In this document: one piece after another, positions 28,198 through 34,779 of the stretch | Numbering within the stretch: the first letter of the stretch is position 1 | How the letters are laid out: each line of letters opens with the position of its first letter | NCBI GenBank assembly: GCA_017645765.1 | Contig: JAGCNV010000066.1 | Location: 1-51,522 of the forward strand | Source: a bacterium | GTDB taxonomy: Bacteria; UBP6; UBA1177 | Direction of reading: 5' to 3' | DNA length: 51,522 bases | The notes under the pieces: generated by a model | What the model was told of the DNA's origin: nothing | Databases searched by the model: none | The model's input: the letters and a program-made list of their open reading frames with translations, nothing else | Position numbers and translations under genes: made by a program

Positions 28198-29706
28198 CTA
28201 ATTTACAGGTTTTGCCTTGACAACCGGTTTTCCGTCTTTTTCTTCAATTGAGAACTGGACATCGGAACATTTATATTTAGCCATGATAGAAGCTTTGTTC
28301 GTTCTGACTTTGCCTATAAATGCCGTTTTTTCCTTTTCGCTTACTGATTCGCCGTGTTTGCGTTTTATTCTGCAGTAGTCTTCCCAAAGAGCATCAAACG
28401 GATTGCTGGAATTCTGCGCTGCGGAACCAAGAGATGGTGCAATCTGCGTTTTTTCGTTGTCCTCGTCATCATCATCTTCTTCGACCTGTGCAGGAATAGT
28501 ATGATTTACCGCTTCGGATTTCACTTCATGCTCAGGTTGAGGTTTCGGAGTCTCTTTTTTCGGCATTTCGGTGTGGACTGCAGCAGGTTTCGCAACTTTT
28601 TCAGCCTTTATCTCTTCGACCGATTCGGTACCGAACGGATCAGGAATCGGAGAATCGAAATCATCTGCACTTTTACCTTTTCCGGCTTTTACAAGAGGTG
28701 AAGAAGTGATTCCGCCAACATCTTCATTAGCCTCAAGGTACTGCTGAATAAGCTTGTTCATAGCCGAAACAACTATGTCTGCACCATTTGAATATCTCTT
28801 GAGAACGAGCTTCTCGCCGACTCTCATTCTTGAAATATCTGATGCAAGGTTTTTGAGTATCTTATCGATTTCGTGAGTTACTATGAATGTGAAGAAAAGT
28901 GCGACAAGTATCGCGATAACCGAATAAAGAACGACAGTATAGAGAACTTTGTTATAGCTTTCCCAGCCAGGAATCAGGGAAGTCATAGTAACGATCGTGA
29001 TTTTGTCTCCGCCTGCGAGGTCGTAAGGCATTGTGAATGCGGAAACTCTTGTCCAGCCGTTAAGTTCTTTCTGACCGCCTCTTGTAACAAGCTCAGCCAT
29101 ATCGGCATCAAGATTCGCCTTGCCGTATGATCCTTCAACCGAAGTCCAGCTGTCGCCACCTCTCTCTGCGATCGGAGATGAACCTTTGAAAGCCCTTACA
29201 GGCATCGGAAAAACAGAAAGAAGATCGTCGTCGAACTTTTCAAAAGTTATTGCTGCAAAAAGTTTGTTTCCGTCAGCAAAAACCGGAACAGCACCGATGA
29301 GGTAAAGATCGCTGCCAGTAGAAAACATGCCGTCAGAAGCAACACCGTCTTTCAAAGCCCTCTCAACTGCCGGAATACCTGCATAAGAATTCATAACCTT
29401 GAAGTTGCCGTCAATAACAGCACCGTTTCCGCCGACTATCGCATACTCTTTTTCAGAAGTTATTTTCGAAGTAACTTTTCCTTTTTCGACCTTCAGCTGT
29501 CTGGCTATTTCGAAAGAATTGCCTATCAGCGAATAGTTTCTGCTTTTAAGTTCGGACTCTACCAGTTTGGCAATGTTTTTAGCTCCGTCCTGAACATCGA
29601 TTTTTACTATAAAATCTTTAAAAAGAAGAAAATTGGCTGCGGAAAGAGCCGTGATAACAACTGCCATCAGGAAAAAAACCTTTAATTTCAAACCTAAATT
29701 CGTCAT
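28198..29706 (-). CDS. Membrane sensor-like protein with MXAN_5187-type C-terminal domain
   Basis: This 502-aa protein has two membrane helices, at about 8-28 and 253-277, flanking an extracytoplasmic domain that looks like a single/double CACHE sensor (SEKEYAIVGGNGAVIDGNF, FAAITFEKFDDDLLSVFP). A HAMP-like stretch (THEIDKILKNLASDISRMRVGEKL) and a Pro/acidic linker follow. The last ~70 residues (FDALWEDYCRIKRKHGES ... KGKPVVKAKPV-like ending) match the MXAN_5187 C-terminal domain of Myxococcus. There is no kinase, cyclase or methyl-accepting domain. It likely transmits a signal to a partner, perhaps the TPR protein in the same operon. The partner is inference. Confidence 0.72.
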   Translation of the reverse strand: MTNLGLKLKVFFLMAVVITALSAANFLLFKDFIVKIDVQDGAKNIAKLVESELKSRNYSLIGNSFEIARQLKVEKGKVTSKITSEKEYAIVGGNGAVIDGNFKVMNSYAGIPAVERALKDGVASDGMFSTGSDLYLIGAVPVFADGNKLFAAITFEKFDDDLLSVFPMPVRAFKGSSPIAERGGDSWTSVEGSYGKANLDADMAELVTRGGQKELNGWTRVSAFTMPYDLAGGDKITIVTMTSLIPGWESYNKVLYTVVLYSVIAILVALFFTFIVTHEIDKILKNLASDISRMRVGEKLVLKRYSNGADIVVSAMNKLIQQYLEANEDVGGITSSPLVKAGKGKSADDFDSPIPDPFGTESVEEIKAEKVAKPAAVHTEMPKKETPKPQPEHEVKSEAVNHTIPAQVEEDDDDEDNEKTQIAPSLGSAAQNSSNPFDALWEDYCRIKRKHGESVSEKEKTAFIGKVRTNKASIMAKYKCSDVQFSIEEKDGKPVVKAKPVN

Positions 29707-29722
29707 ATATAGTCTCCTTCAA

Positions 29723-30430
29723 TTAATCCATCGATGTTGAAAAAGAGTTGAGATTTACCACTCTGCCCTTGTCGATTTTGTAAATAAAACTCTGAGCCGC
29801 ATTCTGAACGACCATAAAATCTTCGGTATAAATTGAATTAGTTCCGTAATAAATTTTCAGTGAATAGCTTCCCGGTGCGATATCAGGAATATCCTTGTTG
29901 TTGCTGCCTTCCTTAATTCTCCAGACATATGTGGTTTCAAGAACTTTTACTGAAGAACTGTTCCACGGAAACGATTCATCAGTGATCGTGTAGTCACCGG
30001 ATTCTGTAAACGTATGCTCCGCAGAAGAGTTAGGCTGTATCTCGAGCGAAACAGACTCTCCCCCTTCATGAGCTACAGTTATTTTTCTCGGCAGTTTTTC
30101 TTTGTTTTCAATAATCAGGACACCGTTTTTCGGGAAAAGGATCTTTCTGCGGCTGAACTCCGCACCATAAAGCTCCAATTTTTCTTTTTTTGCTTCGGCA
30201 GACGGTTTATATCCCTCGATAACTACTGAATACTGCTCTTTTTCTTTACCTTTCTGAGCATTCAGCACCGGAAAATTCCAGTAACCGTCACGGATGTCTA
30301 CTCTGTACTGTTCCCCTTTTTCCTCGCCGCGATTGTAGTTTATAGTGAGTCTTATCATCGTTGCCGAAACGGAAAAAGGAATCAAAACAAAGAATGAACA
30401 TATAAAAAACAATGCAAAAAATCTTTTCAC
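29723..30430 (-). CDS. Exported beta-rich protein of unknown function
   Basis: This 235-aa protein has a signal peptide (RFFALFFICSFFVLIPFSVSA). The mature part looks like two beta-sandwich units; the middle one (GVLIIENKEKLPRKITVAHEGGES, EHTFTESGDYTITDESFPW) has a cupredoxin-like outline but no copper ligand set that I can see. The C-terminal unit (PDIAPGSYSLKIYYGTNSIYTEDFMVVQ) resembles carboxypeptidase-regulatory-like domains. It lies one base after the TPR gene and 16 nt before the sensor gene. Confidence 0.65.
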   Translation of the reverse strand: MKRFFALFFICSFFVLIPFSVSATMIRLTINYNRGEEKGEQYRVDIRDGYWNFPVLNAQKGKEKEQYSVVIEGYKPSAEAKKEKLELYGAEFSRRKILFPKNGVLIIENKEKLPRKITVAHEGGESVSLEIQPNSSAEHTFTESGDYTITDESFPWNSSSVKVLETTYVWRIKEGSNNKDIPDIAPGSYSLKIYYGTNSIYTEDFMVVQNAAQSFIYKIDKGRVVNLNSFSTSMD

Positions 30431-30431
30431 C

Positions 30432-32081
30432 TTACTCTCCTTTCTGTTCAGGAATAGCAGCTTTAATCTCTTTCAGGAAACTTGAATTCGGATAAGCTTC
30501 GACAAGCTCTTCAAGAAGCTGGGTGGCACTGACAAAATCTTCGATCGTGATGTAGAATTCAAGCTCGTCAAGCCTTGCCTGCGGCGGCTCGGCAGATTCA
30601 TCAAAAACAGCCTCTTTTTCAGACTCCTGAGGTTTTTCTTCGGCGACTTCACCACCGATTTTTTCTTCTGAAGCAGCTGGTTGTTCTCTGTCGGCTTCTT
30701 CGAGGTTCGGAATACCGCTGAACACGCCGCCTTCGACACCCGATTCAGGATCGGTGAAGTCGTTTTCCTGTTCGGCGAGCTGCTGCTTGCGGGAGGATAT
30801 TCTTACATCGTCACTCCCGAGCATATCTTCGGCATCTCCGAGAAGATCGCGCGCTTCGCCGATTTTTCCTTCCGAAACTTTGAGGTCGATGAGAGTCAGA
30901 AGCAGTTCTCCGGCTTCTTCGACTTTTCCCTGCTCGATATTAGCTTCGATGAGAATGTCGTATGCATCATCTGAACTTTCCCAGCCTTCAGTCGATTTTA
31001 CCTTCTCAATCGCTTTGTCGAACAGCTTGTAGGAAAGGAACGAACGAGCCTCCTTTATAGCCGAACGAAGAGAAACCTTGTGCGGTTTTTCAGCACTTCC
31101 GCCATTCGGATCAATGTCGATAACTAAATCGTCTTTGCCTTCTTCACGGCGCAGATCGCCGGTCGAATCCTTGATTTTGTCAGAAATTATGTCACGCAGT
31201 TTCGCATTCTCATTGAGGATGAAAAGGGCTTCCCTGTCGTTCGGATCAAGCTCAAGTATTCTGCGGTACATCTCGTCGCGTTCGGAGTAATTCTTGTGAT
31301 TCGAGTGAACTACCGCTATCTGTTTGTAAGTTGCGATCAGTTTGTGCGTTTCACCCAGTTTATCGAAAACGAAAGCGAGTTTTTCAAGAAATTCGATCGT
31401 GTCCGGATTGTCGACGACAAGTTTCTGAAGAACGATCAGCGCGTTGGAATAACTTCCCTTTTTGAGATAGAAGTTTACAAGCGTTTTTCCGATCTCTGCA
31501 TCGTTTCCCGTTGCCGTGTAGAGAAGCTTCAGCACTGAAACATACTCATTGACACGGTCAGTGTTTTTAAGCGACTCGGCAAGCGGAACAAGCAGTTTCT
31601 CGGCATCGTGGTTCATCTCTTCCGCAATAAGCATATTTGCAAGTTTCACGGTAAGATTTACGTTACCCGGATAAAGCTCGAGCATTTTGCGGAGAATGTT
31701 TATCGCCGCCATCTTGTTGCCGGCTTTTACATAATAATTGACCGCTGTGTTATAGCGCATCGCTGCATCTTTGACCAAGCCGCTCTGTTTGTCGTAATCG
31801 GCAAGCAGAACATTGATTTTGCCGTGTTCCGGACTCAGGAGAAGCGCCTGTTTCAAAACGGCTTTAGCCTTGTTGAGGAAGCCCTTCTTCTCAAAAATCA
31901 CCGCAACTTTTTCGTAAGTTTCTATAGCTTTCGTCTCTCTTCCGGCTCTGGCATAAAGCTCGGCCAGACGGACATAGGCTCTGTCGTCTTCAGGATTTTT
32001 CCTGATAAGTTCCTCGAATTGCTCTATTTCCGAAACAGCCTTTTTGCCTTTGAGAAAGAATTTGCTGTTGTTATTAGCCAA
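30432..32081 (-). CDS. Tetratricopeptide-repeat protein
   Basis: This 549-aa protein has no signal peptide, so it is cytoplasmic. Residues about 18-300 form at least seven TPR motifs (RAYVRLAELYARAGRETKAIETYEKV and similar). Shorter TPR segments occur around 330-410 and near the C-terminus (ISIEDF..ATQLLEEL), with a long acidic Glu/Ala/Pro linker (about 440-500) between. TPR arrays bind partner proteins. Its place between efp and the sensor gene in a compact operon suggests an adaptor role for the membrane proteins encoded downstream. Confidence 0.85.
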   Translation of the reverse strand: MANNNSKFFLKGKKAVSEIEQFEELIRKNPEDDRAYVRLAELYARAGRETKAIETYEKVAVIFEKKGFLNKAKAVLKQALLLSPEHGKINVLLADYDKQSGLVKDAAMRYNTAVNYYVKAGNKMAAINILRKMLELYPGNVNLTVKLANMLIAEEMNHDAEKLLVPLAESLKNTDRVNEYVSVLKLLYTATGNDAEIGKTLVNFYLKKGSYSNALIVLQKLVVDNPDTIEFLEKLAFVFDKLGETHKLIATYKQIAVVHSNHKNYSERDEMYRRILELDPNDREALFILNENAKLRDIISDKIKDSTGDLRREEGKDDLVIDIDPNGGSAEKPHKVSLRSAIKEARSFLSYKLFDKAIEKVKSTEGWESSDDAYDILIEANIEQGKVEEAGELLLTLIDLKVSEGKIGEARDLLGDAEDMLGSDDVRISSRKQQLAEQENDFTDPESGVEGGVFSGIPNLEEADREQPAASEEKIGGEVAEEKPQESEKEAVFDESAEPPQARLDELEFYITIEDFVSATQLLEELVEAYPNSSFLKEIKAAIPEQKGE

Positions 32082-32101
32082 TGTTGCACCTATTTTTTAA
32101 G

Positions 32102-32665
32102 TTATTTTTTCACTCTTTCGATGTATGTGAACTCTTCAGTGCTTATCTTGATAACGTCACCGTTGGAAATGAAAAGCGGAACCATGACCTGACCGCCGGT
32201 AGAAACTTTCGCGGGTTTGTATGATGTCGTTACGGTATCACCCTTGAAACCGGGTTCGGTATCGGTAACTTCAAGCTCGATGAACTGCGGAAGCTGTACA
32301 GAAATCGGCGAACCATTGTAGAACTGAACAGTAACCTGTGTGTTTTCAGGCATATACGGAATAACGTCTTCGATAACTTTTTCATCGATCGGAAGCTGTT
32401 CAAAGGACTCGTTATCCATAAAAATGTAGTGATCGCCGTCCTGATAAAGGTATTCCATGTTCTTTTCTTCAAGATCCGGGCTGTCGACGCGTTCGCCGGA
32501 AAGGAAAGTATACTCAGCAATCGAACCGTTGAGAACATTTCTGAGTTTGGTCTTGATGACCGCTCTTCTTTTCTGCTGAATGTGCTGCATTTCGACGATC
32601 TGATAAGGAATTCCTTCCATCTCGATCTTTAAGCCTCTTCTGAATTCTGAAGTTTGAATAGACAT
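32102..32665 (-). CDS. efp: Translation elongation factor P with a shortened active loop
   Basis: This 187-aa protein has all three EF-P domains: the N-terminal KOW-like domain (SEFRRGLKIEMEGIPYQIVEMQH), central OB fold (EYLYQDGDHYIFMDNESFEQLP) and C-terminal OB fold with the signature GFKGDTVTTSYKPAKVSTGG..VPLFI. EF-P relieves ribosomes stalled at polyproline. The loop that reaches the tRNA CCA end normally reads KPGKG, with the modified Lys/Arg at its tip. Here it reads HIQQKRRAVIKTK, one to two residues shorter and without PG; K32 aligns with the modified residue. Overall length and the other motifs are normal. Confidence 0.93.
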   Translation of the reverse strand: MSIQTSEFRRGLKIEMEGIPYQIVEMQHIQQKRRAVIKTKLRNVLNGSIAEYTFLSGERVDSPDLEEKNMEYLYQDGDHYIFMDNESFEQLPIDEKVIEDVIPYMPENTQVTVQFYNGSPISVQLPQFIELEVTDTEPGFKGDTVTTSYKPAKVSTGGQVMVPLFISNGDVIKISTEEFTYIERVKK

Positions 32666-32880: not shown

Positions 32881-34779
32881 ATGACAGTTATCGGAATCGA
32901 TCTTGGCACGACCAATTCATGCGTCGCAGTCATTAAAAACGGAAAACCGGAAGTCGTAAAGGACGACGGAGGCAAGGCGACAATACCTTCGATCGTCAGT
33001 TTCGTAAAAAACGATCTCACCGGTGAAATCGGTAAAATAGTCGGTGCTCAGGCACATCAGCAGATGCTGACGAATGCGGAAAACACAGTTTACTGCATCA
33101 AAAGGCTGATCGGACACGATTTCAAAAGCGCATCGATAAGTCACATTCTGCCGACACTCCCCTACAAAGTCATTCCGGGACAGCAGGGAAACGGTCTTGA
33201 AATATACATTCCTGCTCTCGGCAAAAATTTTACGACTGAAGAGATTTCGTCCTACATTCTGACAGAGCTCCGCAGCACCGCTGAAAAATATACCGGCGAA
33301 ACAATCTCGAAAGCGGTCATCACCGTTCCGGCATACTTCAACAACAAGCAGCGTCAGGCGACAAAAGACGCGGCTGCGATTGCGGGAATCGAAGTTATGA
33401 GAATCATCAACGAGCCGACCGCTGCTGCTCTGGCTTACGGTTTTTCGAAATCTTTCTCTGAAGAAAAACTGCTCGCCGTTTTCGATTTCGGCGGCGGAAC
33501 ATTCGATATCACACTTATGGAAGTTTCCAAAGACACTTTCAATGTCGTCGCTACTGCCGGCAATACTTTCCTCGGCGGCGAAGACATCACGAACGCGCTT
33601 CTGGATTACCTTCTTGACGATCTCTCAACAAGATACAACCTGCCCGACATCGACGATCAGCTCGTTATCCAGAGGCTACGCGACTATGCGGAAACCGCAA
33701 AGAAAAATCTCACTATCCAGACAGCTGTAACGATCGAAATCCCCTATCTCAAAGAGGTAAACGGCAATTTTATCCACTATAAAACAGAAGTATCGCGCGA
33801 AAAACTTGAAGAACTCGCTCTGCCCTTCATTCAGAAAGCGATCAACACTTTCGACAAAACCCTGCAGGAAGTTCAGCTTACTCCCGGTGACCTTGCCGGT
33901 ATAATCCTAATCGGAGGTCAAACCAGAATGCCGCTTCTGCAGAGTGAACTTGCCGATTTCTGTCCCAGCGTCCAGATCCTCAAGAACATCAATCCAGACG
34001 AAACTGTAGCTATCGGCGCGGCTCTTCAGGCAAAATTCCTTGAAGAAGAAGCCGGAGGCGAAGACAACGGAATGCTTCTGCTTGATGTTACTCCGCACAA
34101 TCTCGGAATTGCAGTCGGAAAAGATATGTTCTACACTCTGATCCAGAAAAATTCGACAGTTCCGACTTCGGTCGACGATATTTTCGTAACTTCTCACGAC
34201 AATCAGGAAAAGGCAAAGATCCTCCTTCTTCAGGGCGATTCGCTCGTCGCTTCCGAAAACGAGATCCTCGGCGAATTCGAGCTTGACGGTCTCCGTCCGG
34301 CAAAACGCGGCGAAGTCAAGATCAGAGTCACCTACGAAATCGACATCAACGGAATCGTAACCGTTCAGGCAATGGATATGGATACCGGTATTTCGCAGCG
34401 GATCACCGTCGCTTCGACCGGCAACATGACGAAAGAGGAACTTGCGAAAAAAATCGAAGAAAACTCCGACTACTACCTCGATCTTGCCGAAAAAACGATG
34501 GTCGAAGAGATCGTCCAGAGCATAGAAAATTACCTTTTCGAGCTTGAAACGATGAAGCCGAAACTTTACCAGATCTTCGCAAACTCAAAGATCGGCAACG
34601 ACAAAATGGAAAAAATGGAAGCCCTCATTTCGGGAACGAAAGCCTACATCAAAGGCGAAAAACTCGACCTCGAAAAACTTCAGGACATCGAAACGAAGCT
34701 CGACATCCTCAAAAATACCTACAAAAATCTTATCGACCATTCGGACGAAACAGTCGCTCCGGACGGCGGAATTTTCTAA
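32881..34779 (+). CDS. Hsp70/DnaK-family chaperone
   Basis: This 632-aa cytoplasmic chaperone has an ATPase domain with [59 protein letters not shown] and LIGGQTRMP. The substrate-binding domain starts at [15 protein letters not shown]. The C-terminus ends [12 protein letters not shown], without the EEVK/EEVD-like Gly-rich tail of canonical DnaK. It binds exposed hydrophobic peptide segments in an ATP cycle with a J-protein and nucleotide exchange factor. No dnaJ or grpE is nearby and several segments differ from canonical DnaK ([16 protein letters not shown]), so it may be a second, specialised Hsp70. The gene stands alone. Confidence 0.92.

Follow-up and report, generated by a model that had tools for sequence, protein, structure and literature searches.

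The window, the 51,522-nucleotide stretch of contig JAGCNV010000066.1 (GenBank assembly GCA_017645765.1) analyzed here, encodes an elongation factor P (EF-P) whose tip loop is a clade-fixed variant of this known factor: it has lost Pro-Gly and one residue and carries three consecutive basic residues. The clade is an order within UBP6, a candidate phylum reported from methanogenic bioreactors (PMC7382037). In the E. coli literature, Pro-Gly at the EF-P tip is held to be indispensable for lysine-type function (PMC6544042). A whole uncultured order whose only EF-P lost it along with one residue, and has since kept the new sequence unchanged, offers a natural experiment on the role of the tip; the loop bears on whether charge can replace modification. 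In our judgment it is close to an even call that this is a functional, single-copy EF-P whose loop was remodeled in a single event at the order's base, with an unmodified tri-basic tip contacting the CCA end of the P-site tRNA.

The altered tip loop

The gene and the parts of it that concern the loop are as follows.

32102–32665, minus strand: efp, elongation factor P, 187 amino acids, complete three-domain architecture (open reading frame and profile matches)
32558–32584, minus strand: H28–V36 (HIQQKRRAV), the stretch that is invariant in the order's alignment, with the shortened beta3–beta4 loop
32564–32578, minus strand: QQKRR (residues 30–34) in place of the canonical KPGKGx, one residue fewer (sequence and alignment)
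32570–32572, minus strand: Lys32, the counterpart of E. coli Lys34, which EpmA modifies (alignment)

By family models the window protein is a genuine EF-P with a putative function in polyproline relief. It scores 234 bits against TIGR00038 efp (cut-off, 185.8), and its KOW-like domain and two OB domains (PF08207, PF01132, and PF09285) all exceed the curated Pfam cut-offs. No second EF-P was found in the window's own genome, which gave a single match only.

The loop reads QHIQQKRRAVIKT (tip region: ...VEMQHIQQKRRAVIKTKLRN...), for which the canonical counterpart is QHVKPGKGxAFVRT. Replacement of KPGKGx by QQKRR removes one residue, the proline, and both glycines and adds two arginines, which bears out the description of a non-standard QQKRRA loop without PG in the first-pass annotation. 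The loop had also been called one to two residues shorter; it is indeed shorter, but by exactly one residue relative to canonical homologs and not by two. Lys32 was correctly placed opposite the residue that is modified in other bacteria: it pairs with the canonical tip lysine, with one gap, in an alignment against six standard-loop EF-Ps, and it pairs in the same way with the E. coli chain of 6enj and with 1yby.

The statement that all other EF-P features are normal is roughly right. The GDT motif and the C-terminal YxER are retained, and when 17 sequences from the order were compared with six canonical ones, eight of the 13 columns with order-fixed differences fell within residues 29–38. The others lie elsewhere, at residues 49, 55 (R/K to L), 71, 99, and 105, and the window EF-P also differs in the residues that follow GDT and in the DTRTG stretch close to its C terminus. 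AlphaFold2 gave a domain I pLDDT of about 29–36 for the full protein (17 clade sequences) and a mean of 57.6 for domain I alone (13 sequences), with helix at positions that are strands in solved EF-Ps. Both domain I models were of low confidence and were set aside as a shallow-alignment artifact, so they lend no structural backing to the proposed tip geometry.

Fixation, origin, and reach of the loop

The phylum set comprised 28 genomes, 25 from the same order (families f1, f2, and f3) and three from the sister family f4. An EF-P match was obtained in 27, and none was found in one same-order genome that is 65% complete. Alignment of EF-P across the lineage, a check proposed in the first-pass annotation, placed HIQQKRRAV in 24 of 24 same-order EF-Ps, which come from all three families and are 67–100% identical overall to the window protein. 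The canonical KPGKG loop (HVKPGKGxAFVRT) was present in three of three EF-Ps from f4. Because every EF-P of the order is altered and every one of the sister family is canonical, a single origin of the loop from the KPGKG type, at the base of the UBP6 order, is most likely. All other invariant runs in the order's EF-P alignment are shorter than H28–V36, whose codons vary synonymously among 23 loci, with four Arg codons in use at R33 and five at R34. Nine residues that are invariant while their codons vary suggest purifying selection rather than decay, and a single origin followed by purifying selection would be the simplest account, drawn from the alignment rather than from a tree. That the loop is an artifact of sequencing or assembly, or belongs to a degenerate second copy, is a negligible prospect, refuted by its recurrence in 24 independent genomes and by the single EF-P match; no support for it was found. 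Neither of the two pitfalls raised in the first-pass annotation, an error in the loop or a second canonical efp, materialized.

A degenerate DNA pattern for H[IV]QQKRRA[VIM], specific to these flanking residues, was scanned against the genomes of 84,980 species and matched 33 stretches. Twenty-three of these encode EF-P, all within this clade (67–100% identical to the window protein), and the other 10 have no EF-P similarity. Viral contigs contained no match to the motif, and two scans for EF-P relatives there also found none. The literature searched does not mention a shortened EF-P loop or a UBP6 EF-P; the variant may nonetheless be published. Another EF-P without PG was seen in a genome from an unrelated phylum (G041, L027, 1501–2058); its loop, KKARRSA, is of standard length, and there is an in-frame TAA upstream.

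Known EF-P types and modification enzymes

The window EF-P shares with the lysine-type EF-Ps of E. coli and B. subtilis (KPGKG) its three domains, the GDT motif, and a tip lysine aligned with K34. It differs in lacking Pro at −2 and Gly at both −1 and +1, in being one residue shorter, in the two arginines that follow the lysine, and in coming from genomes without EpmA or EpmB above cut-off. One hallmark of the lysine type, a lysine at the loop tip, is therefore present, whereas the other, a loop of seven residues with Pro at −2 and Gly at −1, is absent. By E. coli rules such a loop should fail, because changes to P32, G33, and G35 cripple the factor: no activity is left in P32S/G or G33A/S, and G35N retains 3.8% (PMC6544042). 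The same study reports only 20% activity for K34R, which has an arginine tip, and 50% for over-produced unmodified EF-P.

Arginine-type EF-Ps, which are rhamnosylated by EarP, likewise have no Pro at −2, but the window tip is Lys rather than Arg, Gly at −1 is absent, and none of the 28 genomes has EarP; neither attribute of that class, an arginine tip and EarP, is therefore found. EfpL (YeiP) resembles the window EF-P in having a basic tip that may work unmodified, and E. coli EfpL, with an arginine tip, does so (PMC11611912). Its loop has two extra residues, with a Pro retained three positions ahead of the tip Arg; the window loop is shorter and gains charge. The window EF-P has neither the loop of more than seven residues nor the arginine tip of the EfpL/YeiP class, and it falls far below the cut-offs (TIGR02178, 121.6 bits versus 264.05; NF003392, 134.4 versus 216). 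This precedent demonstrates that a basic tip can function without modification once loop geometry changes, there with a longer loop. Actinobacterial EF-P, reported to be active without modification, is described as having a stiffened rather than a shortened loop (as cited in PMC11611912).

The first-pass annotation had suggested searches for EpmA and EarP, and neither was found above cut-off in any of the 28 phylum genomes; a Bordetella genome was positive for EarP as a control. Two of the best sub-threshold EpmA matches were checked, and both were LysS (lysyl-tRNA synthetase). EpmB was also absent above cut-off from all 28, so neither enzyme of the EpmA/EpmB beta-lysylated class, in which both are encoded, was detected. 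The EpmB model matched a protein at 235–267 bits in 17 genomes, and the one checked belongs to the KamA family. Deoxyhypusine synthase was found in none of the 28 genomes, and 7 of 14 controls were positive. The 5-aminopentanolylation set (YmfI, YnbB, GsaB, and others) is described as complete only in Firmicutes and some proteobacteria (PMC5885033). The canonical sister family also has no EpmA, EpmB (above cut-off), EarP, or deoxyhypusine synthase, so the absence of these enzymes does not explain the loop change. The original suggestion of an unmodified form or an unknown modification is plausible and partly supported: the absence of these enzymes fits either option, but that absence, shared by a family with the canonical loop, does not track the loop change.

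The genes around efp were examined as follows.

30432–32081, minus strand: TPR-repeat protein directly downstream of efp and in the same direction, with a weak SgmX-like match; adjoins efp in 23 of the 23 order loci examined
28198–32665, minus strand: gene run of efp, the TPR protein, a predicted secreted protein, and a membrane protein with an MXAN_5187 C-terminal domain
32881–34779, plus strand: Hsp70 protein divergent from efp, scoring below the DnaK, HscA, and other cut-offs (570.6 against 648)

In loci that are long enough, the TPR gene is usually followed by the predicted secreted protein and the MXAN_5187 C-terminal-domain membrane protein. No TPR match was found in the three f4 loci, whose 1.5-kb flanks are too short for a full comparison of gene order. 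Among the 23 order loci, the Hsp70 gene beside efp was matched only in the window's genus.

It is possible, but in our view unlikely, that Lys32 (or Arg33 or Arg34) is modified by an enzyme family not yet known for EF-P, with loss of PG reflecting different enzyme docking. EarP-type loops also have no Pro, loop composition is reported to track the modifying enzyme (PMC6544042), and the 17 genomes noted above encode KamA-like lysine aminomutases, which could supply beta-lysine. These genes are patchy in the phylum, however, and their distribution is independent of the loop: they are missing from six near-complete same-loop genomes (G003, G005, G009, G012, G013, and G019) and present in the canonical sister family, and beta-lysine supply through KamA was rejected as a correlate of the loop. 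In addition, the search for EpmA, EarP, and deoxyhypusine synthase detected no known modifier, and none of the efp neighbors looks like a modifying enzyme. In G021, a KamA-family aminomutase gene (420 amino acids; L071, 393–2652) adjoins one for an ATP-grasp protein resembling D-Ala-D-Ala ligase; both score below equivalog cut-offs.

Proline translation and the function of the loop

Somewhat more tentatively than the functional reading given at the outset, we propose an alternative form of EF-P activation in which a compact, Pro/Gly-free, tri-basic QQKRR tip with a single KPGKG-derived origin at the base of the order would stabilize the CCA end by encoded charge, with no modification. In the functional reading itself, UBP6-order EF-P would most likely still bind in the E site next to a P-site tRNA stalled on proline. 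Lys32, Arg33, and Arg34 would jointly make backbone contacts with the CCA end, and the compact tip would steady it through its charge, with Lys32 not lengthened post-translationally. For the UBP6-order EF-P we infer E-site binding, tip geometry, lack of modification, and polyproline rescue. The idea of a working EF-P is supported by fixation of the loop, codon variation, retention of GDT and YxER, the absence of EpmA, EarP, and deoxyhypusine synthase, the precedents of EfpL and of over-produced unmodified E. coli EF-P, and two observations on proline translation, a PPP motif in ValS and the D stem of tRNA-Pro. Of the 28 genomes, 23 have the ValS PPP motif (in the remaining five, the fetched loci contain no such stretch), and because it is retained, PPP must still be translated. 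In the tRNA-Pro(UGG) genes read, the 4-bp D stem is intact (GCGC/GCGC in the window's family).

The D-loop of tRNA-Pro measures 9 nt in E. coli and likewise in tRNA-Pro(UGG) of family f3, and 10 nt both in the window's family and in the canonical sister family. Its length does not follow the loop change, and co-evolution of tRNA-Pro with the loop was rejected.

Proline motifs were counted in open reading frames of at least 150 amino acids, called by a simple longest-ORF rule, in about 1.2 Mb of G006 (806 open reading frames; L109–L128 and L199–L238), 0.4 Mb of G021, 0.33 Mb of the three f4 genomes, and 0.2 Mb of each of two unrelated genomes. Three 8-kb loci (15 open reading frames; PP, 13 versus 14.6 expected) and the window alone (39 open reading frames; PP, 13 versus about 18) were excluded from the comparison as too small. 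In G006, from the window's genus, PP occurs 285 times against approximately 475–480 expected (0.59–0.60), the lowest ratio among the homodipeptides, and PPP 5 times against about 19–20. Strong-stall contexts are more depleted there than in any other genome counted ([PDAG]PP, 24 versus 67.7 expected; PP[PDGNW], 38 versus 63.7).

This depletion, as a weakened EF-P might leave, and the E. coli mutant data (PMC6544042) are points against a working EF-P. Both would fit a loop that works poorly at the peptidyl-transferase center, in a factor that is either weakened or turned to another task, such as acting on other stall motifs or retaining the P-site tRNA. Polyproline would then be handled by ABCF ATPases or by other factors; ABCF linker matches occur in 26 of 28 genomes. 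We regard such attenuation as doubtful. ABCF genes are equally frequent in the canonical sister family, and the loop is the most conserved stretch of the protein, unlike a part that is being discarded. G021, a family f3 genome with the same loop, shows no PPP depletion (15 versus about 14–15 expected; PP, 217 versus approximately 258–262), and PP is also low in the standard-loop f4 genomes (58 versus approximately 74–75, a ratio of 0.77; PPP, 2 versus 2.4–2.6). Because one same-loop family is depleted and another is not, the diprolyl depletion is not attributed to the loop. The two unrelated genomes have PP ratios of 1.01 and 1.24, and [PDAG]PP is also low in the unrelated G037 (8 versus 17.6 expected).
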